Positions 14,806 through 63,639 of a stretch of 64,000 bases of DNA are shown here, one piece after another. Origin of the DNA: Epichloe hybrida. Lineage: Eukaryota > Ascomycota > Sordariomycetes > Hypocreales > Clavicipitaceae. Made by a program: the position numbers and the translations under genes. The notes below the pieces were generated by a model. That model had not been told where the DNA came from and did not search any database. It saw only the letters and a program-made list of their open reading frames with translations. Numbering within the stretch: position 1 is the first letter of the stretch; the number at the start of each line of letters is the position of its first letter. The DNA lies in contig JAFEKR010000003.1 of assembly GCA_019022495.1 (NCBI GenBank), positions 186,001-250,000 on the forward strand, given 5' to 3'.

Positions 14806-17623
14806 TCAAAGCTGCGTGACTTCATAGGGAGCTACCCTCGGCGTAAGATACCCCCCCGGACGCATTCGGCGCCAGGTATAGCCCGTAAACGCTGTCCTCT
14901 TTCGCACGTTCATGGCAGTCGTTTTCGTGCTCGGGTCTCGCAACAATATGTCCCTCGGGCGCTTTGGCTCCTTTCTTCCATGCATGCGAAGAAAGGCCTT
15001 CAAAGTCTTCCTTTCTTCCGGAGTTATGTGAAAGGTTCTGTCGATTCTTCGATCCGCGCTTCGCAGCCTGGCCGAGTCGTAAGGTGTGGCGAGTAGCTCA
15101 ATGGCCAAGTTCTGTACGACTGGTCTACAACCCCGAAGCACCCAGCGGACGTCTTCCGGTTTGGGATCCGCTTGTTCGGTTTCCGACGACGCCATGAGCT
15201 CCGTGAAGTGATCAGACTCGTCAAAGTAATGGGTATCGTCGAGGCTGGTGATACGTGGTATGAATGGTGGGCTTATGGCATGTATGCGATCCCATGGAAA
15301 GTTCTTGAACCAGCGATGGGCTTTGATATCTTCTGCGTCGTCGGGAAACACGTGTCTCTCGAAGATGTCAGTGTATCTTCTGTCGTAGGCCGGACGGCGA
15401 TCTTTCATGCGGTATCGTCTCGAACACAGCCGAATATCCTTGTCCTGAACTAATTTGAAGATCAGATCTTTGCACTTGTCGCTTACCATAGGTCGGTGCG
15501 GAAATGAGAAAATCTGTTTGTGGTCCTTTTTGTTATGGTCAATATCATGAGTTTTATTTTTTTTATTTTTTTTTTTTTGCCCTAGGGACCAGGTTTCATT
15601 AGAGTGGTGCACTCACCAAGATATTGCTCTTGGTCTGTTGTCGGCCATTGTCGGCAAAGAAGGGGGTATGGCCGTAGAGGCATTCATACAGGATGATGCC
15701 AATACTCTACCAGTCGCATCTTCCGTCGTATTCTGAACCTCTGCACGCCTTTATCACCTCTGGCGCCATGTACTGACTTGTTCCGACAACCGAATTTGCA
15801 GACACGCGGTTGCCACATCTGTTCCTCTAACCCAGCAGGCTAGGTAAATCATCCTCTTCGCCCACGCTTTTCCTTTCATGTCGACTCAAAACCTTCTTCA
15901 TGGCCTGCAACCAAGGGATCTGTGAGCTGATGTTGGCGCTTTCCTTCTGGTCTTGCTCGTCTCCATCCACGCGGACACCAAGCTTTCCAAGAAGCAAGTA
16001 TCGTTGACATTTGTAGTAAGATACATCATGACACCAGTGTCCGTCAAAAGCAAGGCCGAAATCTGATATTTTCAAGTGTCCGGAAGCTGAAACAAGAAAG
16101 TTATCAGGCTTGATATCCCTGTGGATGAACTTGAGGCGATGAACCTCTTCGACAGCCAAGATCATCTCAGCGACGTAAAAACGTGCGACTGATTCATGTA
16201 GAATATTTTCTCGGATCAAGAGACCGAGGAAGTCTCCACCTGGCATGTACTCCATGACCAGATATAAACTCGTCAAATCTTGGAAGCTGGCCACCAGGGG
16301 GACGACCCTGTGCACGAAACAGTTAGAAAAATGAAAAAATTAAATAGTAATCGACTGCTAATCTTGTCTCGTTACCAATTGGAACCTTCAGAGGGCACCA
16401 GAAAGTCTCTCTCGGCCCGTAAATGCCCTTCTTGACAGCTGCGAATCATTTCCGATTTTCGTATGACTTTCATTGCAAAAACTTGCTGCGGAAATGCGTG
16501 GGATTTGTCCGGCCTTTCGCGCACCAGCTTGACGACTCCAAAGCTTCCACGGCCAAGAATCTTTAGCGGTTCATAGCTATCTGCTTGTGAGCAGTTCTCC
16601 TGCATCAACGACATTAATGACTTTGTTTTGATCGCACGAGCCTCTCTCAGATGGCAAGTCTCTTGGTAGTAGAAGGATTGCCTAATGGCATTTTTTTCTT
16701 CTGCGTCCAAATGTGGACTGTAGTAGAGCTGCGACTCCAGATACTGCAAGCGAGCGATCCGCGGGTTGGGTTTGTTGAGAAGGTTATTGAAGCACGTTTC
16801 CATGAAGATCTTGGCTGCTGCTGCTTTCTCAACAGTGTCAATCGTCGGCTGTGGCTGATGGAAACCTTCCACGATGGTTTGCAAATTGCCTCCTCCATCA
16901 GGGCTGGACTTGGACCATGGGTGCCTCCGGCTGTGTCGTCGTTTGGGACTCACTTTTGCGAGGGTATATTCCGAGAATCGCGAATCCACTGATGTCTTTC
17001 CCGTCGACTTATTGCCCATGACCGACGATTTATCCGTGCCCAGAGAAGATATCGAACTGACAGCATCACTAAGCGGAAAGGATGAAGCGGAACTGGGTAG
17101 GGCTTGCAGCGATGTCCGCCTTCGCAGCAAAGAGCCACGAAGAACTACCGTGGCATTTGAAGACGTCCCAAGGTTGTCGAGTCCAAGCTTTCTCACGAGA
17201 GCTTTTGGTGACATGCCTTTGTGTCTGCGCAGCGGAACTGGGTCCGGCCCGGCAGGCAAGTCTTGACCGAGCTGCTGTCTCTCCAGATTTGCCGATGATG
17301 AGCGTCTGCGAGTCCCTTCAATGACCGTCGAACCATCGGAGCCTGGTATTTTTACTTCATCAGTCAACGTCAATCGATCATGTCCATGAGATATGGAGAT
17401 ATCGGCACAAACAGTTATATTGAGTACGTTTCATGGCGCGAATGGCACCTCGTATCTCGGAAAGGACCTTGACACTACCTGGCCTAGGCCTGCTCGTGCT
17501 GGGCGCAGCTTGTTCATCGTCTCGCCTCTCATCTGTCTTTGACTGAGAAACGGCGGGTTGTCTGGTCGTCATCGGACTCAAAACCGGGTAGCTGCTTCGC
17601 TTGTTGAGCAGCTTTGGTGCCAT
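14806..17623 (-). CDS. NDR-like AGC protein kinase with in-frame TAG codons (PUK1/stk-21-like)
   Basis: Model: exons 17623-17428, 17342-16376, 16307-15617, 15525-14806. All introns are GT-AG and all frames close, giving 858 codons including the stop. An NDR-type N-terminal helical region (about 190-320, TVEKAAAAKIFMETCFNNLL) precedes the kinase domain from about 320: GRGSFGVVKLV, MKVIRK, EYMPGGDFLG, HRDIKPDN, DFGLA, then an insert of about 85 aa typical of NDR kinases, then VVGTSQYMAPEVI. Two TAG codons interrupt it: 15829-15827 (codon 548) and 15709-15707 (codon 588). The second replaces the second Trp of DWWSIGIILYE. Everything after it, including the AGC C-terminal extension, is intact. 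This resembles Fusarium PUK1, where TAGs are edited to TGG in perithecia. A recent pseudogene is the alternative. Confidence 0.8.
15827..15892 (-). other. Possible in-frame 66-nt intron removing the first TAG
   Basis: A GT (15892-15891, weak donor GTTTTG) and an AG (15828-15827) enclose exactly 66 nt. Removing them joins QAMKK to RNRCGNR in frame and deletes the first TAG. The second TAG cannot be removed this way without losing conserved kinase sequence. Confidence 0.4.
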
Positions 17624-18428: not shown

Positions 18429-20126
18429 TTACTTGATCTCAAGCAGCTTGACATCGAAGGTCAATTGGCTGTTGGCGGGGATGCCAGGCATGCCGCGGGA
18501 GCCATATCCGAGGTTGGCAGGAATGGTCAGGCGTCGCTCACCACCAATGGCCATGCCAATGATGCCGATATCCCAGCCCTTGATGACCTGTCCCTTACCG
18601 GCCTTGAAGGAGAAAGGCTTGCCCTTCTTGTTGGCTGTGAAGTGAATGAGCTGGTAGGTCCAAGTATATCGGAGTTACGTCATTAAAGATAATCAACCAC
18701 TCACCGTCAAACTGTTGGCCATTGGCCAGCTTGCCAATGTATCGAACACCAACGGTATCACCGCTCTTGACAGCTCGGCCCTTTCCAATGGTTCTGTCAT
18801 CAATGGTGACTCCTTGGACGACTTTGACGCCAGTAGTAGTAGCCTTGCCAGCAGCCTGCTTGCCAGAGCCGGTGGGGCCCTGCTCGAGGTTCTTGGCAAA
18901 TTGAACCTTTTTGTCCTTCTTGGCATCCTCAGCAGTAACAGCTTCGCCCTTGTTGTTCTTGAGCTTCTTCTGCTGCTTCTTAGAGTCAGAGGCCTTGGTG
19001 ATCAGATCGTCAAGACCCTCGGCCTCGGCTGCGGCGCGCTTGTTCTTGCCTTTTTTGGTATCGACCAGCTTGGGAGCTTCCTCCTCATCGGAGTCGACCT
19101 CAGTGACGCGGGGATCCGCAGTGTCGTCGAGTTCATCGCTCTCATCATCACTGGCACCTTCGCCAATGGCATAGTCGAGCTCCTCGGGGTCGAAATCGTA
19201 ATCATCCTCATCGTCCTCGCTGTCTATCTCATCATCGTCCATGATGTAGTTACCGGTCAGATAGACAGTATGCGTGCCACTGACAGTAAAGAAAACCTTC
19301 TCGCCGTGGTTTACCGTGATGTCGAGAGGCTGCTGATAGTTCTGTATCAAACCGTTAATCACTGGGGAAGGGAGGATGTGGCGTTCGTTGATATGTGCGG
19401 CCAACTGCTTACTCTCTCAGTGTCAAGGGTGCAAACGACAAAGTTCTCGAGATCGTCACCCTCGCTGCTCTCGTCGTCATCATCCTCATCATCTTCATCC
19501 TCATCAGATTCTTCATCCTCATCTTTATCAACCTGTTGGACGGCCTTGCCCTTACCCTTGCCTTTTCCCTTGACGCCGTTGGGCTTGGCATCGGCCATGT
19601 CCTCATCTTCATCCTGGGTGGTGGCCTCCATGAGGGCCTTTATAGCAGCGGCCTGTTTCTGTTTCTTGACCTTGGCGGGGTCGCTTGGCCCACCATTGGC
19701 CTCCTCGTCGGATTCTTCATTCTCGTCGTCGTCAGAGCCAGCAAGCAATGCCTTCATGTACTCGTCGTCAATCTCGTCATCCTCATCGTCATCAAGAGCT
19801 GGGAAGACACGCTTGACCAGACGCAGAGTAGAGCGAGGAATGGCGGGAATATCGCCGTTTTCGTCAGGCTCGGGATTGTCACTTGGGTCCAAGGCAGCCA
19901 TGGTGATGCGGAACTAGGATGTTGTATATGTTAGCGTACCAGCGAATCGCGAGGCAAACAAGAGCCAATTGCCGTTTGCATTTCACGCCAAATCAACATG
20001 GAATTCTAGTCGCGCAAAGGAGAAGTTATTGGTACTAACGGAGGCAGGAAAATCCATGGCGGCCGGGATCAAGACATCGCCAGGCGGGATCTCGAGGCCA
20101 TAAACGGGACCCGGAATAGCAGACAT
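18429..20126 (-). CDS. Nucleolar FKBP-type peptidyl-prolyl isomerase (Fpr3/Fpr4 type)
   Basis: Model: exons 20126-20040, 19913-19413, 19341-18705, 18634-18429, giving 476 aa. The N-terminal nucleoplasmin-like domain starts with [20 protein letters not shown] and, after the first splice, [10 protein letters not shown]. It is followed by long Asp/Glu tracts (about residues 60-190 and 215-300), a Lys-rich stretch, and a C-terminal FKBP domain of about 110 residues with the usual [44 protein letters not shown] and final [11 protein letters not shown] motifs. FKBP39/Fpr4 proteins act in the nucleus and nucleolus as histone chaperones and proline isomerases on histone tails and in rDNA silencing. 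The splices restore family sequence (QQFD to ANKKGKPF). Upstream lies 2.3 kb without a gene. Confidence 0.95.
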
Positions 20127-24282: not shown

Positions 24283-25830
24283 ATGAGCGACGTGACCACT
24301 GCACTCACCTCGGCCTGTGGCTACAAGATTCGCGACGATGATAATACAACAAATATAGCCGCAGCATCTGGCTCCGAGCCGAAGCACAACGAGCGTCCTA
24401 CCAACCGACGGCGGCGACGGCATTCCTTCTCACTGCCTCGGAGAAGATCAATTGTGGAAACAATCATGGAAGGCGAAGAGGGCCTGTTGCTGAAAGTCGA
24501 CCTATTCCTCTCTGAACTAGAGCGCCGCCTCGATTCCCTCGAAAGTTATTACGGCGACCTCGGCAAGGACTACAGCTTTTCTCGCGCTTTTAGCACGCTC
24601 CAGGCCGTCAGAACAAGATGCTCGCATGCCTCCGAGGAGGTCATTGGCGCCGGAAGACGTCGCCTGCAGATCATGGTCGAGACACTCGAGATGCGCTACC
24701 AGGAAACTCTTGCGGCTACTGAGTCGCTGCACGAGAAGGCTCGCGTGGGGGTTGATCTTCTCGAGGGCATGCTCTCCGAGTTTGAAGCACGCACATACAA
24801 GCTACGGGAGCAAGGTCTTGCCAATGCGGCCAACGCCGCAGAGGCCTTCATGGGTGAAGGTCGCCGCGTTGCCAACGAAAGTATTGAGAGGGCCAGGGGT
24901 GTCATGGACGAAGGTCTGGAAAGGGCAAGACGAGCAGCGCTCTCACTAGAGGAGCACATACAACAAGCAGTGGCAAAGGCCAGAGAGACACGCCTGATTC
25001 AATACCACGAACTGCCTACCCCCTGGCGAAACAATCCTCACATAAAGAGAGGCTACCGCTTCACCGAGACCAAGATTGAGTGCGTGCAATCGGCCTTCAA
25101 CATGTCCAACGAATTCATCAATATCTGGTCTCATGTCATTGGACTCTTTCTCGTCTTGGCAGTTGCCTTTTATTTCTATCCCGCCAGCACCAATTTCTCA
25201 CTCAGCTCCAAGAGTGATGTGTTCGTGGCTGCCGTTTTCTTCGTCATGGCTTGTCTCACACTGGTCTGCTCGACCATATGGCACACCATGAATGCCGTTG
25301 CCGACGTTGATGCAATTTCCATCTTCGCATGCGTCGACTACACGGGCATTTCCCTGCTAATTGCCGCCTCCATCATGACCACAGAATATACCGCATTCTA
25401 CTGCGATCCCGTGAGCCGCTGGATCTACATGTGTCTTACCGCCTCTCTGGGATTCGGTGGTGTCATCCTGCCTTGGCATCCCAGGTTTAATGGACCGGAT
25501 ATGGTCTGGGTGAGAGTGGCATTCTTTGTGGGTCTTGCCCTGACGGGATTCATGCCCATGCTGCAGTTGTCTCTGACCCATGGTCCCGACTTCGTCATCA
25601 CATTCTACTCCCCCATCCTGAAATCCATTCTGGTCTACTTTGGCGGCGCAATCGTGTACGCAAGCAAGATTCCTGAACGCTGGTGGCCTGGCATGTTTGA
25701 CTACATCGGTGGTAGCCACAACCTGTGGCATGCCGCTGTACTGGGAGGCATTCTATTCCACTACACGGCCATGCAGACATTCTTTTCCAACGCCTTCCAC
25801 CGCGCGGAGGGAGGCTGTCCTGCGTACTAG
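24283..25830 (+). CDS. PAQR/hemolysin-III family membrane protein (Izh3-type)
   Basis: Intron-less, 515 aa from MSDVTTALTS. Residues 1-60 are basic (NRRRRRHSFSLPRRR). Residues 70-240 form a long amphipathic helical region (VDLFLSELERRLDSLESYY through RRAALSLEEHIQQAV). After RGYRFTETKIECVQSAFNM, the PAQR signature, come seven predicted membrane segments from about residue 285 to 505. Conserved polar residues expected to bind zinc are visible: the Ser/His set in CSTIWHTM and the two His in GGSHNLWHAAVLGG. Adiponectin-receptor-like fungal Izh proteins affect zinc homeostasis and sterol/sphingolipid metabolism. The long N-terminal cytosolic domain is what distinguishes Izh3 from Izh1/2/4. The codon at 24271 (TTG) is upstream in frame, but ATG 24283 is the first ATG. 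Confidence 0.92.
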   Translation: MSDVTTALTSACGYKIRDDDNTTNIAAASGSEPKHNERPTNRRRRRHSFSLPRRRSIVETIMEGEEGLLLKVDLFLSELERRLDSLESYYGDLGKDYSFSRAFSTLQAVRTRCSHASEEVIGAGRRRLQIMVETLEMRYQETLAATESLHEKARVGVDLLEGMLSEFEARTYKLREQGLANAANAAEAFMGEGRRVANESIERARGVMDEGLERARRAALSLEEHIQQAVAKARETRLIQYHELPTPWRNNPHIKRGYRFTETKIECVQSAFNMSNEFINIWSHVIGLFLVLAVAFYFYPASTNFSLSSKSDVFVAAVFFVMACLTLVCSTIWHTMNAVADVDAISIFACVDYTGISLLIAASIMTTEYTAFYCDPVSRWIYMCLTASLGFGGVILPWHPRFNGPDMVWVRVAFFVGLALTGFMPMLQLSLTHGPDFVITFYSPILKSILVYFGGAIVYASKIPERWWPGMFDYIGGSHNLWHAAVLGGILFHYTAMQTFFSNAFHRAEGGCPAY

Positions 25831-26593
25831 TCGTCATGTCTTGCCACGGTGAGTCACGGCATGGTATCGCAATATCGTTACCATGATCTTGAAGTCGGAG
25901 GATGATGATGAGGATGAGAGAGAGAGAATGAGAGACGTGTAATGGAGAAACGAGCATGCTGTCAAGACGAGAAAACATGATTTGTGCTTCCAGCACAGCA
26001 TTCACTATCTGTCGGGTTGGAGCGAAAGTTGGCTATTATTCATTTTTTTTTACAGCCAGGGGCATCTACCGGCGTTTTCTTTTTCCCTCGCTTTTCGGCA
26101 AGGCAGCTGCAGACACGCTTAGTGTGCATTAATGAAATATGTAGAAGAGTCCTAGACTAGACTATATTCATATACGTGGCATTGGGCCATCATCAAACCA
26201 TGAGCGTATTTGCAGCGACAATGTAAAGTAAACCCGTGAGTGATTCAGACTGTCTCTCCCCACCACACTTCGTCCATTGTTCATGAATGCAGGAGTCTGA
26301 GGCGCCATCGTAGACCGTACAAAAGAGGAAGAAGGAAATACATGACACCGCGCAACACATTCTACATCCTCATACGAGAAGCACAAATAACGCCCTTTTG
26401 TATCCTTTCCTGATCATTTGCCCCGTTTCCCCGTACCCAAACCGTGGCTGTTTCTGTTCCCGCCGTTCATAAACTTCATTATCATAGCTAGTAGGATGTA
26501 TCGCCGGTATCGCCCGCGTCCAATTCTTCCGCGGATGCTCATCTCCAACTGACGCCCCGTCAGGACACTTAATATTGTAGTTCAACCACCTGA
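25831..26593. other. Convergent intergenic region
   Basis: 3' flanks of the PAQR gene and the Bub2-like gene. It holds a GATGAGAGAGAGA purine run near 25900-25935. No gene is seen. Confidence 0.45.
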
Positions 26594-28255
26594 TTACATG
26601 GCGTGCGTGACAATCTCAGCGTACACATCATCGGGAATTTTCTTGATGATCCCGATGGTGACGCTCTTGATCAAGTCGGCGTTCAAGGGGGGGAAAGATC
26701 GAAGGACCTTGTTTGGACTTTGGTAGAGAAGGGGTCAAGTTAGTTACAGGAGATGCGATGGGCTTTGTCGACATTGGGGGGGGGGAGTACCTCGGGGATT
26801 GCAGTATCTGCGACCTCATGATGGTGAGCTGGGCCACGATACACAGAATATTTAGGTGCGGGCCGTAGGCAAATAGAAAGTCCCAGAGGCGAAGAACCTC
26901 GGGTAGCGGGGGTGTGCACGCACAGAGGGTCAAGACGGAGGGGAAAGCGTAGATTTCGGCGGAAAGACCTTTTGCGGTGAGGTACAAGCTCAGTTTCGGG
27001 TCGACGATGGCGAGGACCTTGTCGACTAGGGCGAGGCCGCGATGGACGCCGTCCATGGCTCCGCGGATGTAGGCGGGGCATTCCTTGGTGAGGAGGGAAT
27101 GGAATGCGACGAAGGCTTCGGCCTCGCTACGAGCCGCGTATAAGAAGGGGGCGGCGAGGACGTTCATGCCTTGTACGTAGGTTCCTGGTTCTGGGCCGGT
27201 GCCGGACTCTATTTTCTTTGGTGTTAGCACTGGGGTTTTATAGAGATGGGGGGGGGGGGAAGTCCATGATCGGGGGTGTTGATGCGTGTTCTTCTGTTGG
27301 TGATTTTGATGAAGGCGGATTCATGTGGACAAACAAACGTACTGGCTTGGGAGTGCCCGGAAACGCTGCCTCCTAGACTCTGCCTCGGCGCATTGGAATG
27401 ACTACTGCTCGGCCGACTGGCATTTTGTCGCTGCTCCTCCTTGGCATCGTGCAACTTCCAAGCGGTGGCGTTGAGCAACCGAATAAGGCTGGCCTCACTG
27501 ACGCGCCGCCGAAAGAGAGGGTCGGTGGTGAGAGTTCTGAATGTGTCATTGCGGATCTTGGAGTAGGCCGGTGAGGCGCCGCGATGAATGAAGGAGAGGT
27601 ATTCGTCCGTGGACATGATGGGTGCGTCTAGCAGGACAAGCCAGACGTATATCCTCAAGGGTGACTAGCCGGGAAAACCCCTCCAATGTCAGTAAAAGAC
27701 GACTGCTTTTCTCGAACTGAACGCCGCCCCGCTCAATAATCCGTCAAGAGGCTAACAGAAGGTGAAGAGGTGCCATACCATTCCATCGTCAGCGCTCTTG
27801 ATACCCTCATCAATCACCTTCCACCTTGCGCTTTCCAACGCCCCCAAGTAGTCTCCGTCACTCGGTCCGTCACGAAAGATCTGCTGCAGCGACAAGTGAC
27901 CATGCGAAAAGACGGGCTTCTTCAAACCGGTGCGCTTTGTCCCCGCGACAGCGCTCATCTGCATCAAGGCCGACGCGGCATCACTATTGGCGCGACCTCG
28001 CTGCGGGGAGCGAGTGGGTGATGCATTGCGCTGAAAGTCTCGTCGCTGTTGGGAAAGCAGAGACGGTTGGTTCGCGGATCGAGCGGCGCCTAGCGTGTGA
28101 GCGGATTGAAGACGACGGAGAGCTCGATGTGTCCGCGGCGATGGAGGTACTTGGAGGTCGATATGGGCGATGGTGGGGTGTGACGAGGTGGTGGAAGAAG
28201 GAGGAGGAAGAGAGGGGGCAGAATTTGCTTCCTGAGTCTGAGGGGGACTAGCCAT
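26594..28255 (-). CDS. TBC-domain GTPase activator, Bub2/Cdc16 type
   Basis: Model: exons 28255-27779, 27664-27343, 27208-26791, 26717-26594, giving 446 aa. The N-terminal 110 residues are low complexity (Pro/Ser/Arg-rich). The TBC (Rab-GAP-like) region follows: YLGALESARWKVIDEGI, SPLRIYVWLVLLDAP (in place of the usual R-x-W segment), YVQGMNVLAAPFLY, PEVLRLWDFLFAYG, and the C-terminal PSPNKVLRSFPPLNAD and GIIKKIPDDVYAEIV. This C-terminus fits Bub2/Cdc16. In yeast the protein works with Bfa1/Byr4 at the spindle pole as GAP for the Tem1/Spg1 GTPase, controlling mitotic exit and septation. The GQG and QGMN motifs support the fold; the partner is inferred from the family. Divergent from the sulfate permease gene. 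Confidence 0.9.
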
Positions 28256-28967
28256 GGCTGCGAGGCTTCAAGACGGACTTGTGCATGGCATTTGGACAAG
28301 GAGCTTGGCTGGCGATGTCAAGATTTGGCTCTGTCAGTACGAAGAGGCACGCGATGCGATCGCGTGGTGGCTGGATGCGGGCTGGATGGATGCGGACCAG
28401 GCCATTGCGCCGTCTGCAACTGCCTCCTCTCAGCTGCGCTACGCTAGGAGCGGCAACCCGACTGGTTGGTGGGGCAAGCCTGATGCATCACCTCATCGCT
28501 CTTTCCGTCTGGTAACCGCTTCGAGACGATGCTGCTTGAAAGATTCATGGACTTTTTTTTGCCCGGATAGCGACAGGAAAGATGCCTTCTTTGGTCCTTC
28601 TTTGCTACTCTCATCGTCAAGTTGACAAGAGGTTTGCTTCATCATATCTTTACCTTGACCCGTCGCACATCGCATGCCTCTAGGATTGGCTGATCGCGCG
28701 GCATTACCAGTCGGTCGCCATTCGGGCACGAAGAAACAACAAGGCCTTTGCTACTGTTGGGTGTCGTCGACTTTCGTGTCTCGACCGGCATGTCGGTCCT
28801 GTTTCCTTAGTGTCGCATCTCAGTGAGATCTTTTTTATTCAGCGCTCCCGCGCCTCTCCTCCCTCTGATCCACAATGAACGGCGGCGTTTGTCTTTGCTA
28901 TTATTTGTTGGTTGTTCAGTTCTGCAGTGTAAGCGAGGCGGAATCTTGTCAACAAGTTGCCGCAAGC
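28256..28967. promoter_or_regulatory. Divergent upstream region, Bub2-like / sulfate permease
   Basis: 700 bp of shared upstream sequence. An in-frame ATG at 28875 could extend the permease by 31 residues; the sequence after it is not family-like and is treated as leader. Confidence 0.4.
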
Positions 28968-31521
28968 ATGCCATCCTTTGCTGCCAGGACGGGCCATGGC
29001 TTGGCCAAGGCTCTTGGCATCAAACTACAAGACTCAGATCAGGATACCGCGGTTGCGGTCACGCGAGGAGAGTCAATTTTCTCCATGCAGACAAACGGCA
29101 GTTTTGTCGAAGGGCCACCTACAACCTCGGAGTGGCTCCATGATCAAATTCCCACGCAACAAGAGGCCGGCGCATACGTCAAGTCTTTGTTTCCTTTTCT
29201 CTCGTGGATGGGACATTACAATCTCCAATGGCTCGCTGGTGATATAGTTGCAGGCGTCACCATCGGCGCCGTTGTTGTGCCTCAAGGCATGGCGTATGCT
29301 TCGTTGGCCAAGCTCGAGCCTCAGTTTGGTTTATACTCTTCATTCATGGGTGTCATCATATACTGGATATTTGGTACTTCGAAGGATATTTCGATCGGCC
29401 CTGTTGCTGTCCTTTCTACAGTTGTAGGTACGGTTGTCGAAGATGTGGCATCGTCTCCGGATACAAAAGACGTTCCAGCGCACGTCGTTGCCTCGGCCTT
29501 GTCCATCATTGCGGGATGCATCGTCCTAGCCATTGGGCTACTTCGTTGTGGATGGATGGTCGACTTGATCTCTATTACTTCTCTGTCAGCTTTTATGACT
29601 GGCTCGGCCATCACCATCGCAGCTAGCCAATTACCGTCTCTTATGGGCCTGACTGGCTTCTCCAATAGAGACCCAGCATACAGGGTCGTCATAAACACTC
29701 TGAAACACCTTCCGGAGACTAAGCTCGACGCGGCTATGGGACTGACGGCTCTTTTCTTCCTTTATTTGATCCGATATGTTCTCACTTTGGCCGCGGAACG
29801 ATGTCCTACCCACAAGCGCATTATATTCTTCATGAATACAATGCGAACGGTCTTTGTCATCTTACTCTATACCGTGGTCAGCTGGCTAGCCAATATGCAT
29901 AGAAGAGATGATCCAATGTTCCATGTTCTTGGAACTGTACCCAAGGGTGAGTGCTCATAAAATAATCATGTCGACGTCATTCTCTTACCCTGACGCAGGA
30001 CTTCGCAATGCGGCTGTTCCCGAGCTGTCGAGTAGCGTAGTGGCACATTTCGGTTCACATCTGCCAGCCACAGTTGTTGTGATGCTAGTTGAGCATATCG
30101 CTATTTCGAAATCATTTGGTCGAGTCAACAACTACACTATTGATCCATCTCAAGAGATGGTAGCCATTGGAATGACGAACATCTTGGGGTCGTTTCTCGG
30201 CGGATATCCTTCCACCGGATCTTTCAGCCGAACAGCCATTCAGTCCAAAGCGGGCGTCCGAACACCAGCAGCAGGAATAATTACAGGCCTCGTTGTGCTT
30301 CTGGAAACATATCTGTTGACTGCCGTGTTCTTCTACATCCCCAGCGCCACCCTAGCGGCGGTTATTATTCATGCGGTTGGGGATCTCATCACTCCTCCCG
30401 GCACTATTTACCAATTCTGGCTCGTATCGCCAATAGAATTATTTGTCTTCTTTGTCGGTGTATTCGTCAGTGTATTCGCGCATATTGAAGACGGTCTGTA
30501 CGCGACGGTTGCCATTTCGGCAGCCATCTTACTGTACCGTCTCTTGAAAGCCCGCGGCCAGTTTCTTGGTCAAGTGCGAGTCCACTCGGTGCTCGGAGAT
30601 CATGTCATTGGTGAAGACGCCAAGCAAGTGTTCGGCGAATACGGAACTTTTAAGGAGTCGGATGGAAATGCAGCCAGAAACATCTATCTTCCTCTGGACC
30701 ACGGAGACGGCACCAATCCCGAGGTTGATTTAGAGAGTCCGTACCCTGGTATCTTCATTTACCGCTTCTCCGAAGGGTTCCATTATCCAAACGCCAATTC
30801 TTCTCTGGACTATCTCACCAACTTCATTGTCTCGCAAACAAGACGCGCGAGCCCCGAGATATTTGAGCGAGCAGGCGACCGGCCATGGAGCAACCCCGGC
30901 CCGCGAAAATCGGCAAAGTCTAGAGAGAACCCAGAAGTGAATATACTCCCTGTACTCAGGGCTATAATCCTTGATTTCAGCTCGGTGAACAACGTGGACA
31001 TGACGTCTGTTCAGCGTCTCATCGACGTTCGAAATCAACTGGACCTGTACACTGCACCTGATGTCGTTGACTGGCACGTCGCATGCATCAACAATCGCTG
31101 GACAAGACAGGCACTTGTCGCTGGTGGATTTGGCCTACCGACAAAAACCTCTGATGGCTTGCACCGCAGATGGAAATCCATTTTCAGTGTTGCTGAAATA
31201 GGCGGGAAAGACTCAGCTGTTGCCGTAGCTGAAGTGAAGGCGAATGAAACGGGGCTGCAGGCCAGTCATTCTCGAATGAGCAAGCTCGACGAGGAAATGG
31301 GACAAGCCTCGAACTCAGATGACGTGTCCAATCAGCCAAACGATGGCGACGAGAAATCAGAGCAAGCAGGAATGGCAACACAGAGACGCAGAGGAGCCGT
31401 GGTTCAAGGGTTAAACAGGCCCCTGTTCCACGTCGACCTGACGAATGCGGTGCAGAGTGCCATTGCGAATGTGGTAGCAGAGGAGGAATTCAAGGCTGGT
31501 ACTTCTGGTTGGCCCTCGTGA
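28968..31521 (+). CDS. SulP-family sulfate permease
   Basis: Model: join(28968..29946, 29999..31521), 833 aa, with a 52-bp intron that restores VPKGLRNAAVPE. Plasma-membrane sulfate/proton symporter of the CYS-14/Sul1 type. Motifs: VPQGMAYASLAKLEPQFGLY (SulP signature) in the first membrane segments, GTSKDISIGPVAVLS, a core of 10-12 hydrophobic segments to about residue 480, and GGYPSTGSFSRTAIQSKAG, the conserved second signature. A C-terminal STAS domain follows (about 570-720, with VLRAIILDFSSVNNVDMTSV as the anti-sigma-antagonist-like core). The last 100 residues are a hydrophilic tail with Glu/Asp/Gln. Length is usual for fungal sulfate permeases. Start at 28968 is preferred over 28875. 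Sulfur-limitation control by a CYS3/MetR-type factor is known for the family; no site is claimed here. Confidence 0.93.
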
Positions 31522-47392: not shown

Positions 47393-48802
47393 TGTATGCC
47401 ATGCCATATTTAGCATATGTGTCAGGAGCACGGAGGCTAAGGGGCCATGGACGGGACGGTCACATGTTAGAGCCCTCAGATAAGCCTTAGGTTCTATAAA
47501 TAACTAAGTAGCTATAAGATAGCTATGTATATATAGTAAGGTATTTAGATAAGGACTACCTATAAGAGATATAGGAGGTTAGAGTTTAAGACCTTTATAT
47601 ACTTACCTCTAAGTAGTAGCTCTCTAGCTATAACTAAAAACCTTAGCTTTTACTTTATTTATATCTTCTTATATATAGTTATAATAAGTTAAACTCTTAA
47701 ACCCTTTAGGGAAAATAAACTATTAGCTAGATTTAAATATAAAGAAGCTATAAAATATTTACCTAAAACACACCTATACTACCTAGTAAGAAAGCCCTAA
47801 CTTTATAGCACTTAAGTAGTAACTAAAATACCTTAACTATAAAATATAAGAGAGTATAGTAAACACTACCTAACTAATATAATAATACTAAATCTAGTAA
47901 TAATAATAATCTAGATAAGCTATAGAGGTAATATAAGGTTATATAAGCTAAGCTATAAAATACCTATATAAGAAAGGAGATCTTAGATATAGAAGCATAG
48001 CTTAAGGAAATAAAAGTAAACCTATAATTAGCTAGTTTAGGTAAAGGACCTATAATTACCCCTTAGATAAATATATAGAGAATTCCCTTATTCCTAGATT
48101 TCTTACCTAATACTAAGTTTATAGTAAATATATACCTATAAAGCTTTATTAAGATATAGTATAAAGTACTTATATATAAAGGTAATACTTATAAGAATTT
48201 ATAGGTATACTTAGTAGATTTAAATATACTATTTAAGCTAGACTTAAGAACCTTTTAGGATAATAAAATAAAGGTAGTATATACTAGTAGCTGCTTAGCT
48301 AATAATATAAAGTAATAGTAAATATATTATATAATAGTAAATAAGTTAGTTAACTACTTAGCTTACACCTAGGATAGATTTATATCCTAGCTAAATACTA
48401 GAGTAATAGATAAAGATATATAGTGCTTAGAAGCTACTAGGATATTACTAAATCTTAGGTAAAAAAAGTAATTAGTCTTTTTAATCTTTCCTAAGACTTT
48501 AGATAAAGGTAAAAGCGGAATTACTTAACTAAATCCTTATATACTTAAGAATAGTAATTTTTCTAAATAGCTTAAATAATACTATAAGAAAGCATATAGT
48601 TAGCTAAGAGTTCTTAATATCTTAGAGTTACCTATAGGGTTAAGGAAAAAAGGCTAAAGTTATAATAATATTTATATTAAGTAATTATAATAGAAACTAT
48701 AATAAGGAGGGTAAGAGTAATAAAAGATAATACTCTAGCTCCCTTATAAATAACTTATAGTAAAGCTTATAATAACCTAGTATAGGCTAGAGACTATTTA
48801 AG

Positions 48803-48898
48803 TACTATAAATATAGTAGCCCTAGATATAGTATAAATAAATATAATATAGTAAACTACTTAATTTATAAAAGTAATAAGTATACTACTAAGAAGTAT
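48803..48898 (+). pseudogene. Two mutated CCHC zinc knuckles of gypsy Gag
   Basis: In frame from 48803, tyrosine codons sit exactly at the eight positions of two C-x2-C-x4-H-x4-C knuckles (48803, 48812, 48827, 48842; and 48857, 48866, 48881, 48896). Every Cys and His has become Tyr, as transitions in the TGC/TGT and CAT/CAC codons would produce. Confidence 0.8.
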
Positions 48899-49042
48899 AA
48901 GAATAGTAGTAATAAAACCTTAGACTTAAATAAGATTTTAATTAGTTTAGCTTAGGCCTAGGATAATAGTCTTGCTATAAAAAAACCTATAGATAAGAGA
49001 ATAAGAATGCAGGTGTCCTTATGGTAAGATAACTACTAGTTA

Positions 49043-49090
49043 GTAGTGCTAGCGCTGTTTAATATAGGCGTGGAATATTTAATAATCTAC
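49043..49090 (+). pseudogene. Mutated aspartic protease motif of gypsy Pol
   Basis: Reads VLALFNIGVE where family members have an Asp-Thr-Gly catalytic triplet. Asp to Asn and Thr to Ile are single transitions. Confidence 0.65.
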
Positions 49091-49320
49091 CCTAAATTAT
49101 TATTAAAATAGGATTAGAAAAATATAGAAAAAACAGAGATAATACTAGAAAGTATAAGTAAGGATAAGATCTTATACTAAGGAATCCTACGTAGACTAGT
49201 TAAGGTAAAAGATAGTATAGGCTATATAAAGGTTTACTAAGTTAGCTACTATGTTACTAATATAGGAGAGGGAATGCTCCTAGGGATAGACTAGACCCTA
49301 GAGTATAAACCTATAGTAAT

Positions 49321-51342
49321 CAGAGCATTGCAATACAATACAATACAATACATTACACAATACAATACATCTAAAATTTTACAATATAATACAATACATG
49401 TATTATTTGTATTGTTTTGTATTTTTTTTTCTTTTTTTTTAGTTTTAAGTAAATTCCTTAATTATAAGGTATATATAGTTAATATAATAGCTTATAATAG
49501 CTTATAATAGCTTATATATATATATTACTTCTATTATTTATATAACTTAAAATATTATTAGTGTTAAAGTTTAATTAAAAATAAATAAGTAATAAATTAA
49601 TATAATATAAATATAAGTATTTATAAGTAAATTACTATAGAAAAAGCTAGACTTATTAATTATTTAGTATTTAAAGGTTTTTTAAAATATTAATAAAATA
49701 AAATTCCTTTCTTTTTTATGTTTTTAATATTATACTATTTATAATTTTATACTAATAGAAAGTAAGTCCTAATATAACTATAAGACTTACTTTAGTATAT
49801 TTCTCTCTTTTTAACTAAAATTACATAACTAAGTAAAGAGATTATTATGTTTATAGTATAACTAATAGGACCCACTTTTAGACCCACTTTTGTATATATA
49901 TTTCTTTTTAGCTAGAATTATATAACTAAGTAAAGAGATAATACTAGGTTTATAGTATAACTAATAGGACCCACTTTTAGACCCACTTTTATATATCCTT
50001 CTCTTCTTAGCTAAAGTTATATAACTATAGAAAGGGATTATACTTGGTTTTTAGTGTTTAACAAGACCTACTGTTAGACCTACTTTTATATATCCTTCTC
50101 TTCTTAGCTAAAGTTATATAACTATAAAAAGGGATTATACTTGGTTTTTAGTGTTTAACAAGACCCATTTTTAGACCCACTTTAAGAAACACTATATAGC
50201 TAAGTAAGTAAGCTAAAAGTAGTATAAATAGTTAAACTTACTTTTAAAGCTTATTTATTTATTTACTTAATATTAAAAAAATAGTATATATATTATGATT
50301 ATTCTTTATATAATATTTTAACTTTTCTTTATAAGCTTTTCCTAGGTTTTTTCCTTTTCTTTCTTTTAGTTTAAAAAAGGTTAAAAGCTAATATAATTTA
50401 TTATAATTATAATAAAATAGCTTAATAGTAAAAGAAGCATTTATTAAATAAATTTTAATTTTCTCTTTATAATAAATTCCTTATATATATAAGTATATTT
50501 TTATTAGAGTTTTAATCTTATTTATTTAGAATTATAAATTATTTCTTTAGGGTAAATATTATATTTAAAGCAAAAATACTATATTAAAATGCATAGTAAA
50601 TCCTAAACAAAAGCTAGAAAGATAGGATAACCTTTAAAATATAAAGAATAAATTTTACTATAAGTTAAGTTTAGATAATACTATTTATAGCTACCCTATA
50701 TATATATATAGCTTAATAGTCTAAATTAGCTAAAACTTTATAATTCTATAACTAAATACCTAAATAGTATAAAAATTTAAGGATATCTTATTTAGATTAT
50801 ATTCAAAATCTACTATATAATAAGTATATATACTACCTTACCTTTTTAATAATACATTGTATTGTATTATAATGTATTGTAATGTATTGTATTGTATTGT
50901 ATTATAATGTATTTTTATATAATAAATAATTATAATAAATCATAGAAAATAGATATAAGAATAAAAAGACCCTTAATATATTAAGAAAAAATCATTTTTT
51001 AAAATAGATATAAAAGAATATTACTAAGATATTATATATTTAAAATAAGCTTACTTTTCTAAATAAGCTAAAACTTAATAGATTTTTAAATAAATAACTA
51101 AATTATATATAAAAATAAGAATACTATAATTAGATTATTTAAAAAATCTACTATATAATGAATTTATATAATACCCCACTTATATTTTTCCCTAACAATA
51201 CATTGTATTGTATGTATTGTATTGTATTGTATTGTATTTTTAATACAATACAATACACAATACAATACATAGGGCAATACAATACAATACAATACATCGA
51301 AGGGCCAAAAAATACAATACAATACAATACAACAATGCTCTG
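49321..51342. mobile_element. hAT-like DNA element with 8-bp target duplication
   Basis: Begins CAGAGCATTG and ends with its exact reverse complement CAATGCTCTG. It is flanked by identical 8-bp direct repeats ATAGTAAT (49313-49320 and 51343-51350). The CAGAG terminus and 8-bp duplication are hAT hallmarks. The 2022-bp interior is extremely AT-rich with no readable transposase, so it is non-autonomous or fully decayed. ACAAT/ATTGT pentamer arrays lie at both ends and near 50860-50910, and four repeats of about 97 bp at about 49783-50185. It sits inside the gypsy Pol between protease and RT. Confidence 0.8.
49783..50185. repeat. Four tandem repeats of about 97 bp inside the hAT-like element
   Basis: The string AGACCCACTTT and its flanks recur near 49868, 49967, 50063 and 50161. 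Units also share the TATATAACTA and AAGGGATTAT/AAAGAGATTAT strings. Confidence 0.7.
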
Positions 51343-52113
51343 ATAGTAATAGACTAGAAGTAGGGTTTCTAGAGGTTTTTAATAACCTAAGATTATATTA
51401 CTTTTATAGTAGGTAAGTAATAACTATATAAGGTAGCAAAGTAGTCTTTTATTGCGCTATTACTAGTGTTACTAAAGATTAAGGTAGTTAACCTAGAGGT
51501 AATAAAAGAAGATACTAATAAAAATTTATTAATAAGTAATATAGTAAGTAATAACCTAAGTCGTAGTGTAGTTATAGTAATAGTAGTAAAATATACTTAT
51601 GTATTAAAGAAGAAAAAACTAAGAAGCGTAATAGTACTCTAGGTAGTGTTTTGTAAAGAATTAGTAGTGTTTACATAAGAGATAGATAGTAACATACCCC
51701 TGTAGTAAATTCTAGAAAAGTACACGGAATTTATAGATATGTTTTTAAAGGAGCTAGCTAGCAAGCTCCTGGAATTAGGTAGTTATACTTATATGATTAA
51801 ATTAGAAGAGGGAAAATAACTACCCTAGGGACTTATATATAACCTAGCTAAAAAAGAGCTAGAAGTGCTTAGGGAGTACCTAGTAAGTGCGTAGAAGAAA
51901 GGGTAAATTAGAAGATTAATAAGCCTAGTAGGAGCCCTAATTTTATTTATTCTGAAAAAATCAGGGAAATTAAGGCTTTATATGGATTATAGGGGCCTTA
52001 ATAGAATCACTGTTAAAAATAGGGCCCCTTTGCTACTAATCTCCGAAATCCTTAATTAATTAGTAAGTGTAAAGATTTTTATATTACTAGATCTTTAAGA
52101 GGTATACTACTAG

Positions 52114-52420
52114 TGTTGGATTCACAGGGTATTGAATTCAATGTAATACAGTCGTGAGCCCGAAGAATAGTATCGTTATCGATTATCTATTCTAGGCTGC
52201 GTTGTCTGTTATTATAATTGATTAAGTTGTAGGAAAAGAGAGGTAAAAAGCTAGAAGTTATAATACATAAAGGGAAAAGGGGTTGCGCGTTTGTGTCCCT
52301 ACATTTCCTAGCTAATTAACGTGCTAGGTTATAGGTTACGTGTGGGGTCCGCGCGCGGCCTAAGCTTCTGCTAGGTAATTACGGCTGTGACGCGCGATTA
52401 ATATCACCTTTGTTCTAATA
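52114..52420 (-). repeat. Copia LTR (3' LTR of the deleted element)
   Basis: Starts TGTTGGATTC on the plus strand and ends TAATA, where the sister LTR keeps CAACA; the difference is C-to-T change. It retains a GC-rich GGGGTCCGCGCGCGG core. Confidence 0.85.
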
Positions 52421-53461
52421 CTAAAACTTCTCTCTTTTAATATAATTATTAACATGTAATATTAATCGTAGAAATGAAAAAGGAAGATAGATTAAGAATG
52501 TGATTAATAGGGGATGTAAGGAAAAGAACTTATAGCCTATCTAGGCGTATAGTTACTAATAAAAGGGAAATAATAATCTCGCTTAGCCTGTGAGCCTATA
52601 TAAGGATAAGTAGGTCCTTCTAAATCCCTTCTTTTCCTTAAAATAATATATATACCGCACCTTAGTGTATATATAATATCTTCCTCCTCCTTAGCAACAC
52701 CTTTATTCTCCTACACACCGCTATTAATTTCTATGGTTTACTAGGAGGGCCTAGTAGGCTAGCGTGGTCGTGGCTGCTAGGGATATTAACTATAGGGGCG
52801 TAGATCCCCTGTGTATTACTATCTTGTCCCTATGGCTACCCTCCTAGAGGATTATCTTTTCCTCTTACTATGTGTATATTACGCGCGGGTAACCCATCCC
52901 TCTATCCGGATAGTCATCCGGTTGGTTGAGATAAAGCTCTTAAGGGCCTTGTTAGGTAATGCCTTTGTGAAGGCATCAGCTAGGTTGTCCTCTCTGTTAA
53001 TCTATTGGATCTTGCTAGGAACTCTGAATTAACCAGAGGTCCCAGACGGTTTAGCTGCATCTGACATTCTAATAGATTAAGGGAGGCAGATCTTATGATG
53101 TGAGAAGAAAAGGGGTATAACTATGATTATGTAACGTGTTTCGGATGTGAAGGATTGTGAGGCAAGGCGGTTAACTTCAAATACGTAATAGAACGCACAA
53201 CAAAGAAAGATAAGGGGATAGCTTAGCTACTAGCGTTAAACCTTTCTTTGTTATTTTAGAGTCCGTATAGATATAGATGTTAATACCAAAGTAAGAAGAG
53301 AGCTATATTATACCTTTCTGTTAGCATAACTTATTATCAAACGTGGCCCTCCTATTTCATAGGGCGAGTTATTATTAGATAAGCTGCCTTTTCTAATTAA
53401 CCTTGCTAATCTGCGGTGTTTGAAAACTACGTGGTTATCTGTGAAGGTAACTACTGATTAG

Positions 53462-53768
53462 TGTTGGATTCACAGGGTATTGAATTTAATGTAATACAGT
53501 CGTGAGCCCGAAGAATAGTATTATTATTGATTATCTATTCTAGGCTGCGTTGTCTGTTGTTATAATTAATTAAGTTATAGGAAAAGAGAGGTAAAAAGCT
53601 AGAAGTTATAATATATAAAGGGAAAAGGGGTTACGCGTTTGTGTCCCCACATTTCCTAGCCAATCAACGTGCCAGGTTGTGGGTCACGTGTGGGGTCCGC
53701 GCGCGGCCTAAGCTTCTGCTGGGTAATTGCGGCTGCGACGCGCGATTAATATCACCTTTGTTCCAACA
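53462..53768 (-). repeat. Copia LTR (5' LTR of the deleted element)
   Basis: TG...CA termini intact (TGTTGG...CCAACA). It differs from its partner mainly by transitions, and is the best preserved of the four LTRs. Confidence 0.87.
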
Positions 53769-53935
53769 ACTAGCTATATATCTATAAGGGTAATAAGTAA
53801 AAGATAGCATTTTATTACTACTATAAGCACTTTAAATATCTTATAATGTCGTTTAGGTTAGTAAATACGCTAGCTACTTTTTAGGAATATATTAATAATA
53901 CTCTTAAGGGGCTTATAGATAAATTCTATATTATC

Positions 53936-53960
53936 TACCTTAATAACACCCTAATATATA
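53936..53960 (+). pseudogene. Mutated RT catalytic box of gypsy Pol
   Basis: Reads YLNNTLIYS where gypsy RTs have the Asp-Asp pair; both Asp codons are now Asn by G-to-A change. Confidence 0.7.
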
Positions 53961-55669
53961 GTAGTAACCCTATAAGATATATAGAGTATGTTAAAAGGGT
54001 GCTAGAGTAACTTTAGGACACGGACCTTTATATTAACCTTAAAAAGTGCTAATTTTTAGTTATAAAGGTAAAGTTCCTAGGTTTTATTATATCTAAGAAG
54101 GGCATTAAGATAAAACTATTATAGGTTAAAGCTATTATAACCTAGCTAATACCTAGTAGTATATTTAATATTTAATTATTCCTTAGGTTTACGGGTTTTT
54201 ACTAATACTTTATAAAATAGTATAGTAAGGTAGTAGTCTTACTAATAAACTATCTAAAAGGGTTTTAACTAGCGGAGTTTAAGCTAAAGCCTAGTAAACT
54301 TATAGCATTTAGAGAACTCTAAAAGAAGTTCTAGGAGGCACTAATCTTAGTGCACTTTAACTTACTTTATTTACTAAGAGTAAAGATAGATGTATTTAGT
54401 TATATAATTAGAGCTATACTTATAATATTAGAGCTAGGTAGCTAGCACTTAGTAGCGTATTTTTTAAGGAAGTTAACTAATATTAAACTTTACTACTTAA
54501 CCCTAGACGCTAAGTTATTAGTAATCTAAGAGGCGTTTTAAGCCTAGAGATATTACCTTATGTATTTAACTTATTAGATTATAGTTATTATAAACTATCT
54601 AAATCATAAGTACCTAGCTATAAAGCTAAAGCTATCTAGTAGGTAGGTAATAGTATTAGATAAGCTTTATCTATTTAATTTTAGGATTAAATATTATATA
54701 AGTAAGCTAAACCTTACTAATACCCTATTAAGAAGAGTAAATTATATTAGTAAGGAGCGTAGGGTAAAGGCTATATCCTTATAGCTACCTAACTTCTTAG
54801 CTAAGTTTTTAAATACTAAGTAGTAAGAGCACTATATGTGTAATAGTGTAGTTATAGGCCCTAAGGTTATATTACTTAGTGTAGTTAATAGTTTATTATA
54901 AGAATACTATAAGGGCTATTTAAGCCTCTAGGGTTTTAAGAAGATATAACTTTATTATATTATTAAGGAACCTAATAGTCCTATAAAGCCTATAAGTAGT
55001 ATGCTAACTAGGTCTGCTTATTATAAGTAGTAAGATTATGCCTTATCTATATTTTCTAATGTTTCTATAAGTCTAGTAAGCCTATAGGTTAGGAGTCTAG
55101 CTAGGTTAGTAGTTAGTAAGTAGCGTAGGCGCCCCCTTAAAACACTACTTAGCTATAATTTATCTATAAGTCTAAAAGCACACTATAAGCTAGCTACTTA
55201 TAGTAGTATTATAGTAAGAATATAAGTAGTTTAGTAAACCTCTTCTAAGTTCGCACGTAATACATATCCTATGTATATAGAATTAGAGACTCTAATTTAA
55301 GTTATGTTATTTTAAGTATAGTAAGGTAATAACTTTACTATAGGTTATAGGAAGCTACTTAAGAGTAGTAACCTTAAAGTATTATAGATATAGTCTATTA
55401 GGCTCTCTAAGCTATTAATATTTTAAAATAGAGTTTTTATTCTAGTAAGTATAAGAAAGGAAATTTTACTACTTACTTATAATAACCTAGTAGCAGGCTA
55501 CTAGGGAGTTAGTAAGACCCTCTATTAGATTATAAGTTAGTATTACTAGCTAATAATAAAGAAAGACACTAAGTTATATATATAAACTTACATAAGCTAT
55601 TAGACTTTAAAGCTAAGGCACCATAAACCTTATGGTAAGCTAGCTACGCTACTAGTGCTTAATTAGCCT

Positions 55670-55910
55670 TTTTAAGAATTATTAATAGATTTTATTATAG
55701 GGCTACCACCTATAAAAGACGTAAATCAGACCTATAATATAATCTTAGTTATTATAAACCGTTTTACAAAATACAGTATTTACATCCCTATTTTAACGCG
55801 GATAACTAGCAATAGGTTAGCTACTATATTCCTAGAGTATATTTTTAGGGATTATAGCACCCTAGAAGGTATTATTATAGACCGTGGTTTAACTTTTACT
55901 AGCGGGTTTT
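55670..55910 (+). pseudogene. Integrase core relic of gypsy Pol
   Basis: The stretch reads DFIIGLPPIKD, then VIINRFTKYSIYIPI and IIIDRGLTFTSGF, the D-x-n-D spacing and wording of Tf1/sushi-type integrases. This region is better kept than the rest. Confidence 0.8.
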
Positions 55911-56589
55911 AGATAACTTTCTACTATCTTATTATAACTAAGTAGTAACTAAGTATTATGTTTTACTTGTAAATAGATAGTTAGATAAAACATTTAAACT
56001 AAGTTTTAGAGCATTATTTAAGAGCCTTTGCTTGCTTTAATTAGACTAATTAGGCTAATAATCTTTTAATAGTATAGTTTACGTATAATATAAGTATTTA
56101 TTTAACTTATAACTACACCCTAGCTAAGGCGCTGTAAGGCTATAACCCTAGGGGACTATAGTAAGTAGTTATAGACATCCCTGTAGTAAATAACTAGGCA
56201 AAGACTTATGCTACTACACTAAGAGATAGATATATAGTAATTAAGCAGCTTCTAAGTAACTTATAAGCCTAGTATATAAAATACTATAATAAGAAGTAAA
56301 CCCTAATAAAGTTTAGAGTAGGTAACTATATTTTATTATCTATAAAGAATATTAACTTATAGTAACCTAGTAGGAAGCTAAGTATAAAGTACCTAGGCCC
56401 TTATAAAATTAAAAAGGTAATTAGGACTTATAGTTTAGCGTACTAACTAAAGCTACTACCTAGTATATAACTATATAATGTTTTTAATATTACTAATCTT
56501 AAACCGTTTATAAGGGATCTAACTAATATAAAAGATATATCCTTACTACAAGAGAATATTATAAATAATAAGTAGGAGTTTAAAGTCAA

Positions 56590-56700
56590 AAGAATTATAT
56601 TATATTATTATAATAGGAGATATTAGAAATACCTAGTTAAATAGAAGGGCTATAATACTTTAGAGAACTCTTAGGTAAAGAAAAGAGATTTTATTATAAT
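56590..56700 (+). pseudogene. Chromodomain relic of gypsy integrase C-terminus
   Basis: Reads RRY-stop-KYLVK-stop-KGYNTLENS-stop-V, where each stop is a TAG at a position that is Trp in chromodomains. This identifies the outer element as a chromovirus. Confidence 0.8.
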
Positions 56701-56828
56701 AGATATTATTAAGGATTATAAGCGGTAACTAAGCAGCTAGTTTGCGGACATAGAGTTATATTTAGTAAAGTTTAAATAGTAGTAGTAACATATAAAAAAA
56801 AATCCAGATAAATTCTTAGAAACCTAAC

Positions 56829-57137
56829 TGTTGGATTCACAGGGTACTAAATTCAATGTGTAATACAGTCGTGAGCCCGAAGAATAGTATTGTCATCGAT
56901 TATCTATTCTAGGCTGCGTTGTCTGTTGTCATAATTGATTAAGTTGTTAGAAAAGAGAGGTAAAAAGCTAGAAGTTATAATATATAAAGGGAAAAGGGGT
57001 TACGCGTTTATGTCCCTATATTTCCTAGATAATTAACATGCTAGGTTATAGGTTATATGTAGGGTCCGCGCGTAGCCTAAGCTTTTGCTAGGTAATTGCG
57101 GCTATGACGCGTGATTAATATTACCTTTGTTCTAACA
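56829..57137 (-). repeat. Copia LTR (3' LTR of the 6.8-kb element)
   Basis: Same family as the LTRs at 52114 and 53462; it has two extra bases (GTGT) near 56860 and more transitions. Confidence 0.85.
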
Positions 57138-63100: not shown

Positions 63101-63325
63101 TAAACCTTTCTTTATTATTTTAAAGTCTATATAAATATAGATATTAATACTAAAGTAAGAAAAGAGCTATATTATACCTTTTTATTAGCATAACTTATTA
63201 TTAAACATAGCCCTCCTATTTCATAGGGCAAGTTATTATTAGATAAGCTGCCTCTTCTAATTAACCTTGCTAATCTATAGTGTTCGAAGACTACGTAGTT
63301 ATCTGTGAAGGTAACCACTAATTAG

Positions 63326-63634
63326 TATTAGATTCATAGGGTATTGAATTTAATATGTAATATAGTTATAAGCCTAAAGAATAGTATTGTTATTAATTAT
63401 CTATTCTAGGCTACATTATCTGTTATTATAATTAATTAAGTTATTAGAAAAGAGAGGTAAAAAGCTAGAAGTTATAATACATAAAGGGAAAAGGGGTTAC
63501 GCGTTTATATCCCTATATTTCCTAGCTAATTAACATGCTAGGTTATAGGTCACGTGTGGGGTCCGCGCGTGGCCTAAGCTTTTGCTAGGTAATTGCGGCT
63601 GCGACGCGCGATTGATATCACCTTTGTTCTAACA
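63326..63634 (-). repeat. Copia LTR (5' LTR of the 6.8-kb element)
   Basis: The plus-strand start TGTTGG has become TATTAG and many CA are TA, while the inner 100 bp keeps CGCG-rich sequence. Confidence 0.83.
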
Positions 63635-63639
63635 CTAAC

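Follow-up and report, generated by a model that had tools for sequence, protein, structure and literature searches.

Two in-frame TAG codons in a PUK1 orthologue of Epichloe hybrida, a candidate for editing-dependent expression of the full-length kinase

The window analysed here, a stretch of 64,000 nucleotides of Epichloe hybrida DNA, contains on its minus strand (14806..17623) a gene for an NDR/Cbk1-like protein kinase of 858 codons in four exons, interrupted by two in-frame TAG codons. Both TAGs stand at tryptophan positions and recur in another copy of the gene elsewhere in the assembly, the codons past them are under purifying selection, and the genome holds an Ame1-type gene. Judging from the sequence, the best explanation, in which we place considerable confidence, is that this PUK1 gene would depend on A-to-I editing of its mRNA for production of the full-length kinase. 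From these observations we infer the editing itself, its occurrence in the sexual stage and a role of the kinase in ascospore formation or release.

Translation of any transcript in vegetative hyphae would halt at the UAG of codon 553 (or 593), and the product would be a fragment devoid of the activation segment and of the C-lobe. Ame1 would, in sexual tissue, direct the tRNA-type deaminase Tad2-Tad3 to mRNA, where this enzyme would turn the A of both UAGs into inosine, to be read as UGG (Trp), and full kinase would come from doubly edited transcripts only.

Gene model and orthology

Exon 1 (17413..17623), exon 2 (16376..17342), exon 3 (15617..16307) and exon 4 (14806..15513), all on the minus strand, are separated by introns of 70, 68 and 103 nt. 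Both TAGs lie in exon 3, together with HRDIKPDN, DFG and APE, the catalytic motifs of an active kinase, all of which are present in the translation; exon 4 encodes the end of the C-lobe and the C-terminal tail. The end of exon 1 at 17413 was placed via residues conserved in orthologues, and is backed by the KVLSEIRGAIRA...YNC segment, conserved in Claviceps, Epichloe and Ustilaginoidea proteins. It supersedes an earlier model of 836 aa, in which exon 1 ended 66 nt further upstream; alignment columns 531, 570 and 571 in the 836-aa numbering correspond to codons 553, 592 and 593. The segment before the first TAG matches Pfam Pkinase, and the segment after the second TAG scores 21.7 bits against that family, below the cut-off of 31.7 bits.

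An earlier note on this DNA had described a four-exon, 858-codon NDR-like kinase frame, intact except for TAGs, and the gene model agrees. The TAG that it numbered as codon 588, at 15709-15707, is codon 593 in the 858-codon model; as it had proposed, this is the second Trp of DWW, with a genomic TGG at the first Trp, an open frame downstream and, as seen in the sequence, a U before the A. The note also spoke of TAG codons in the plural. Two do exist, but the one at codon 553 had been neither located nor interpreted. The frame closes with a TGA after 858 codons, and codons 553 and 593 are its only internal stops. In all it uses 9 TGG, 2 TAG and 0 TAA codons, with TGA solely as the terminal stop; since in addition both TAGs fall on Trp columns, chance is a poor explanation for them.

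Homologues were collected as the best 120 of 3356 and the best 120 of 1233, merged into a list of 178. Among these listed homologues, the nearest relatives of the kinase belong to E. festucae, Claviceps, Metarhizium and other Hypocreales, and are Cbk1-like. Identity reaches 87% with a Claviceps digitariae protein over residues 300-836 (836-aa model), and 55-61% with Fusarium proteins at a coverage of 97-99%, the latter being compared by similarity and not by the accession FGRRES_01058. Among solved structures, CBK1 (4lqp, E 5e-67) matches best. The adjacent gene, which served as a synteny marker, encodes an FKBP-type peptidylprolyl isomerase with FKBP_C and NPL domains (18429..19913, minus strand, an ORF span rather than a refined gene model). 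As the kinase is fused with FKBP_C and NPL in gene models of Stachybotrys chartarum and Fusarium longipes (P0021, P0113), the gene neighbourhood is conserved. Similarity and neighbourhood together support the reading of the gene as the PUK1/stk-21 orthologue. This bears out the earlier note, which had proposed a candidate PUK1 orthologue and suggested a look at synteny: similarity to hypocrealean PUK1-type Cbk1-like kinases extends over the full length, and the adjacent FKBP_C/NPL gene matches the fusion partners. In another part of the window, 48001-64000, the DNA is AT-rich, with a GC content of 22-37% per 2 kb and RIP-like dinucleotide indices. Neither an Rfam family nor a tRNA was found in the window.

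The stops at codons 593 and 553

The TAG at codon 593 (15707..15709, minus strand, candidate edited A at 15708) lies where F. graminearum PUK1 has its edited A1834, and where F. verticillioides FVEG_01191 is edited (PMC4817773). According to the same paper, DWW is encoded by UAGUAG in F. graminearum PUK1, only the first codon is UAG in N. crassa, only the second in F. verticillioides, and neither in Magnaporthe oryzae and Claviceps paspali. Editing of the UAG takes place in perithecia of F. graminearum, N. crassa and F. verticillioides, and for the TGG-TAG of the last species editing is reported in perithecia and not in hyphae (PMC4817773). Since the published UAGs at DWW are edited, and TGG-TAG is the F. 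verticillioides state, the DWW stop of Epichloe is not new in kind: it is of an already known type. At the DWW column, WW is found in 55 of the 178 listed homologues, while 10 proteins stop short of the first W, 6 extend no further than that W (one of these ends in CGW, not CDW), and 107 skip or lack the site.

Codon 553 (15827..15829, minus strand, candidate edited A at 15828) lies 40 codons upstream of codon 593, at the Trp of LLGWRNRCGNR, before SVVGT...APE. In the same 178 homologues, this column holds Trp in 158, Arg in 1 and a gap in 14, and 5 proteins end exactly before it: those of E. festucae Fl1, Conoideocrella luteorostrata, Ustilaginoidea virens, and two of Ophiocordyceps australis. 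Two Metarhizium models among the 14 gaps jump both stop sites, and the W aligned at codon 553 is doubtful for two Claviceps G4 proteins (P0006, P0007), whose models look frame-shifted there. Stops of other species were deduced from the ends of annotated proteins, not from DNA. A tree was built from the part upstream of codon 553, with 57 rows (55 of the 178 homologues plus the two Epichloe copies), and changes were counted on 50 of them, leaving out 7 of the 55 homologues with a skipped, absent or doubtful site. On these 50 rows, the stop at codon 553 requires at least 3 changes. Most simply, it would have been gained near the base of the Clavicipitaceae, returned to Trp in Claviceps, and gained separately in O. 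australis; it would be common to Ustilaginoidea, Conoideocrella and Epichloe, and probably also to Metarhizium.

No mention of the codon 553 site was found in the accessible text of PMC4817773, PMC5381528, PMC11156358, PMC11087585, PMC11169179, PMC3945203 or PMC12194633. Codon 553 is an additional candidate editing site, and this is the new part of the finding. The earlier note had called the need for editing partly conserved, which stands for the DWW half but understates the case, as a second stop at codon 553 would have to be recoded too. It is fairly likely, in our estimate, that PUK1 of the Clavicipitaceae lies behind a double editing gate, formed by the inherited stop at codon 553 and by the DWW stop, with two A-to-I events per mRNA needed for the full kinase, and that the upstream stop arose again in O. 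australis. If so, a fungal family has radiated with a premature stop passed down in a gene that did not decay.

For many of the listed genomes, the public model of the kinase is cut short or leaves out the stop sites. Claviceps models skip a stop site, those of Stachybotrys and Fusarium longipes are fused to the FKBP neighbour, and those of Epichloe, Conoideocrella and Ustilaginoidea are truncated at a stop (affected models overall: P0001-P0005, P0021, P0113, P0121-P0123).

The RNA context of the two sites was also considered. U precedes the A at both TAGs and in both copies, and the surroundings of codon 553, with G at -3 and U at -2 and -1, fit the weak sequence preferences reported in PMC4817773. 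In structure predictions, the A of codon 593 falls in the 6-nt loop (GUAGAG) of a hairpin (15691..15724, minus strand), with a P(unpaired) of 0.97-1.00 for all five flank sizes and both copies; 62% of F. graminearum editing sites are reported to lie in hairpin loops (PMC4817773). This predicted placement is only moderately unusual. Loops are common in the CDS (33 of the 78 UA sites of the window copy and 41 of the 82 of the other copy are in loops), and 7-9% of synonymous randomisations are as open as codon 593, so that structure lends weak support to this site. The A of codon 553 is mostly paired in the predicted structure of both copies (P unpaired 0.00-0.49), and such predicted pairing counts against editing there.

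The second copy, selection and alternative explanations

The second copy of the kinase gene lies on contig C124 (L003) of the same assembly, with both TAGs at the matching codons, and a single-base sequencing error is unlikely because both are seen on two contigs. Compared with E. festucae Fl1 over the first 529 residues, the C124 copy has 2 mismatches (plus 1 gap, due to a shorter exon 1 model) and the window copy 19. The assembly measures 79.9 Mb, many kinase genes occur in it in two copies, and the genome appears to be that of an allodiploid Epichloe, one of whose parents was E. festucae-like. Gene conversion as the source of the common TAGs was rejected, given that 89 differences are spread along the CDS. 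The longest identical run between the copies measures 195 nt and is matched in 8% of random placements. A short conversion tract could be present around codon 553, but the E. festucae Fl1 protein also ends there. Elsewhere in the window, positions ~24500-29952 have a near-identical counterpart on C124 (L022), and the flanking stretches are ~7-10% different. Compared in bins, 24500-28499 shows 0-1 mismatch per 500 bp, the bin at 28500 contains 73 mismatches or gaps, and 1075 bp free of mismatches follow. This near-identity looks like the product of gene conversion or of homeologous exchange in a hybrid, or else like an artefact of assembly.

Two copies within one genome constitute a built-in test of selection. 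Omega between the copies is 0.240 before codon 553 (29 synonymous and 24 nonsynonymous differences) and 0.149 after it (23 and 13, Fisher 4e-8). For the 132 codons that directly follow codon 593 it is 0.015 (15 synonymous differences for a single nonsynonymous one, Fisher 1.7e-10). The last 133 codons give a value of 0.62 (6 and 12, Fisher 0.40), indistinguishable from neutral, and look relaxed. The earlier note had named TGG at this site in other strains, with signs of neutral decay elsewhere in the gene, as evidence against its reading; what is seen between the copies is purifying selection after both stops, with a relaxed-looking end. Since the codons beyond both stops were under selection in two lineages, we conclude that the protein beyond them was made. 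Purifying selection past the stops and the Ame1-type gene lend support, at the level of sequence, to functional recoding.

In an asexual hybrid Epichloe without perithecia, nothing should prevent the decay of a gene that depends on editing. The hybrid Lp1 is reported to be asexual, and to have retained both parental copies for most of the genes studied (PMC3945203). As an apparent allodiploid hybrid, of a type with this one reported asexual example, the strain may have ceased to edit the kinase gene; the selection measured here accrued largely in the parental lineages.

It could be imagined that the kinase gene has been inactivated, by RIP for example, and that its remainder has yet to decay. 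The change from TGG to TAG is indeed of the RIP type (CpA to TpA on the other strand), a RIP-like AT block is present in the window (TpA/ApT 1.66), and the end of the gene has the relaxed look described above. Such a pseudogene is nevertheless very unlikely, and is disfavoured because the codons after the first TAG are under purifying selection between the copies (omega 0.15), selection that extends past both stops. The RIP indices of the kinase gene are moreover normal (0.51 and 1.31, where window positions 1-46000 give 0.54 and 1.33), and together with selection they led us to discard a RIP pseudogene. The stops number only two, each of them a TAG and each at a Trp, and the one at codon 553 is deduced across Ustilaginoidea, Conoideocrella and Epichloe. 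Removal of the stops by splicing of short in-frame GT-AG introns seems to us highly improbable as well, even though two stretches of suitable form exist, both beginning with GT and ending with TAG: one of 51 nt, in frame, that ends in the codon 593 TAG (15707..15757, minus strand), and one of 66 nt that ends in the codon 553 TAG (15892-15827, minus strand). In Claviceps, Metarhizium and others, the gene models pass over stretches at the stop sites, and those of Claviceps omit the same residues as the 51-nt stretch, joining MAPE to SIGIILYE. Excision would however cost conserved kinase residues, including the DW of DWW, and DWW is kept as coding in the 55 homologues counted above. The two differences between copies in the 51-nt stretch are both synonymous; the 66-nt stretch, with 1 synonymous and 1 nonsynonymous difference, is little informative. 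The corresponding intron of F. graminearum proved from cDNA to be an annotation error (PMC4817773). On these grounds, real introns over the stops are disfavoured.

Selection on a full-length frame would fit any kind of recoding, including translational readthrough or a suppressor tRNA decoding UAG on an unedited mRNA. We regard this as barely credible. TAG terminates 4 of the 10 other ORFs of the window that were checked (ends taken without comparison to homologues), so that it does not look generally reassigned, and general reassignment was rejected for this reason. In addition, both stops stand at Trp, the direct product of A-to-I change on UAG, and editing is the mechanism reported at DWW in three related fungi (PMC4817773). 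A last alternative overlaps with editing-dependent PUK1 as far as codon 593 is concerned: only this codon would be usefully edited, and the stop at codon 553 would make the full-length protein rare or absent in the lineage. The predicted stem around the codon 553 A speaks for it, as does the fact that we found no published example at this codon in the accessible editing literature. We consider it unlikely, since the 553 stop is deduced in three genera of Clavicipitaceae and in O. australis and yet the later codons are constrained between the copies, and since the context of codon 553 (U at -1 and -2, G at -3) matches the preferences reported in PMC4817773. Editing-dependent expression of PUK1 is thus the explanation that we retain.

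The editing cofactor and comparison with known systems

Ame1 belongs to the DUF726 proteins; its MV500-501 is reported to be essential, and its triad is S531-D589-H629 (PMC11087585). In this genome, DUF726 genes on contigs C1 (L013) and C69 (L014), which are 92.6% identical over 3561 bases, encode a Met-Val whose two residues precede the triad Ser by exactly 31 and 30 positions, followed by Asp and His at +58 and +98 from this Ser, which is the spacing of the Ame1 residues. Two other DUF726 types that were checked have AS or SL at the Met-Val position. Additional DUF726 copies on C106 and C142 score equal to C69. The genome therefore appears to encode a Sordariomycete-type Ame1 cofactor gene, assigned by residue spacing and not by comparison with F. 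graminearum Ame1.

Other kinases of the genome were scanned for TAG codons. Three of those with one TAG were inspected; in each, the TAG stands at codon 1 or 2 of the match and is most simply read as the end of an intron. Stop correction has been reported for the FgRID gene (PMC11156358); none of the 6 Pfam matches to DNA methyltransferase genes in the genome has an internal stop, a negative result for correction of the FgRID type.

Premature stops that last in functional genes are among the clearest cases of a protein needing mRNA editing. PUK1, the founding case, would here acquire a further gate, in a family that comprises symbionts of grasses and pathogens of insects. No editing study of Clavicipitaceae was found by title or abstract among the matches listed.

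The closest known system is F. graminearum PUK1 (FGRRES_01058), where UAGUAG becomes UGGUGG. The Epichloe gene, a putative orthologue and likewise Cbk1-like, shares with it the UAG at the second Trp and the preceding U, but has a genomic TGG at the first Trp of DWW and the further UAG at codon 553. FVEG_01191 of F. verticillioides has TGG-TAG at DWW, as in Epichloe; it differs in that no upstream stop is mentioned for it in the accessible text of PMC4817773, and in that the Epichloe genome is a probable hybrid with two gene copies. In the N. crassa orthologue NCU03242 (stk-21), a single UAG at DWW is corrected by editing, but at the first Trp, whereas that of Epichloe is at the second. The E. 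festucae Fl1 protein C2857_002599 (P0121), almost identical to the C124 copy and ending exactly before codon 553, is annotated as a truncated kinase. Finally, CHE1 and other premature-stop-correction genes of F. graminearum (PMC11169179, PMC11156358) also combine a conserved in-frame UAG with ADAT-type editing, and their orthologues are likewise misannotated via truncation or false introns; their proteins are unrelated to the kinase, and editing of CHE1 occurs in hyphae.
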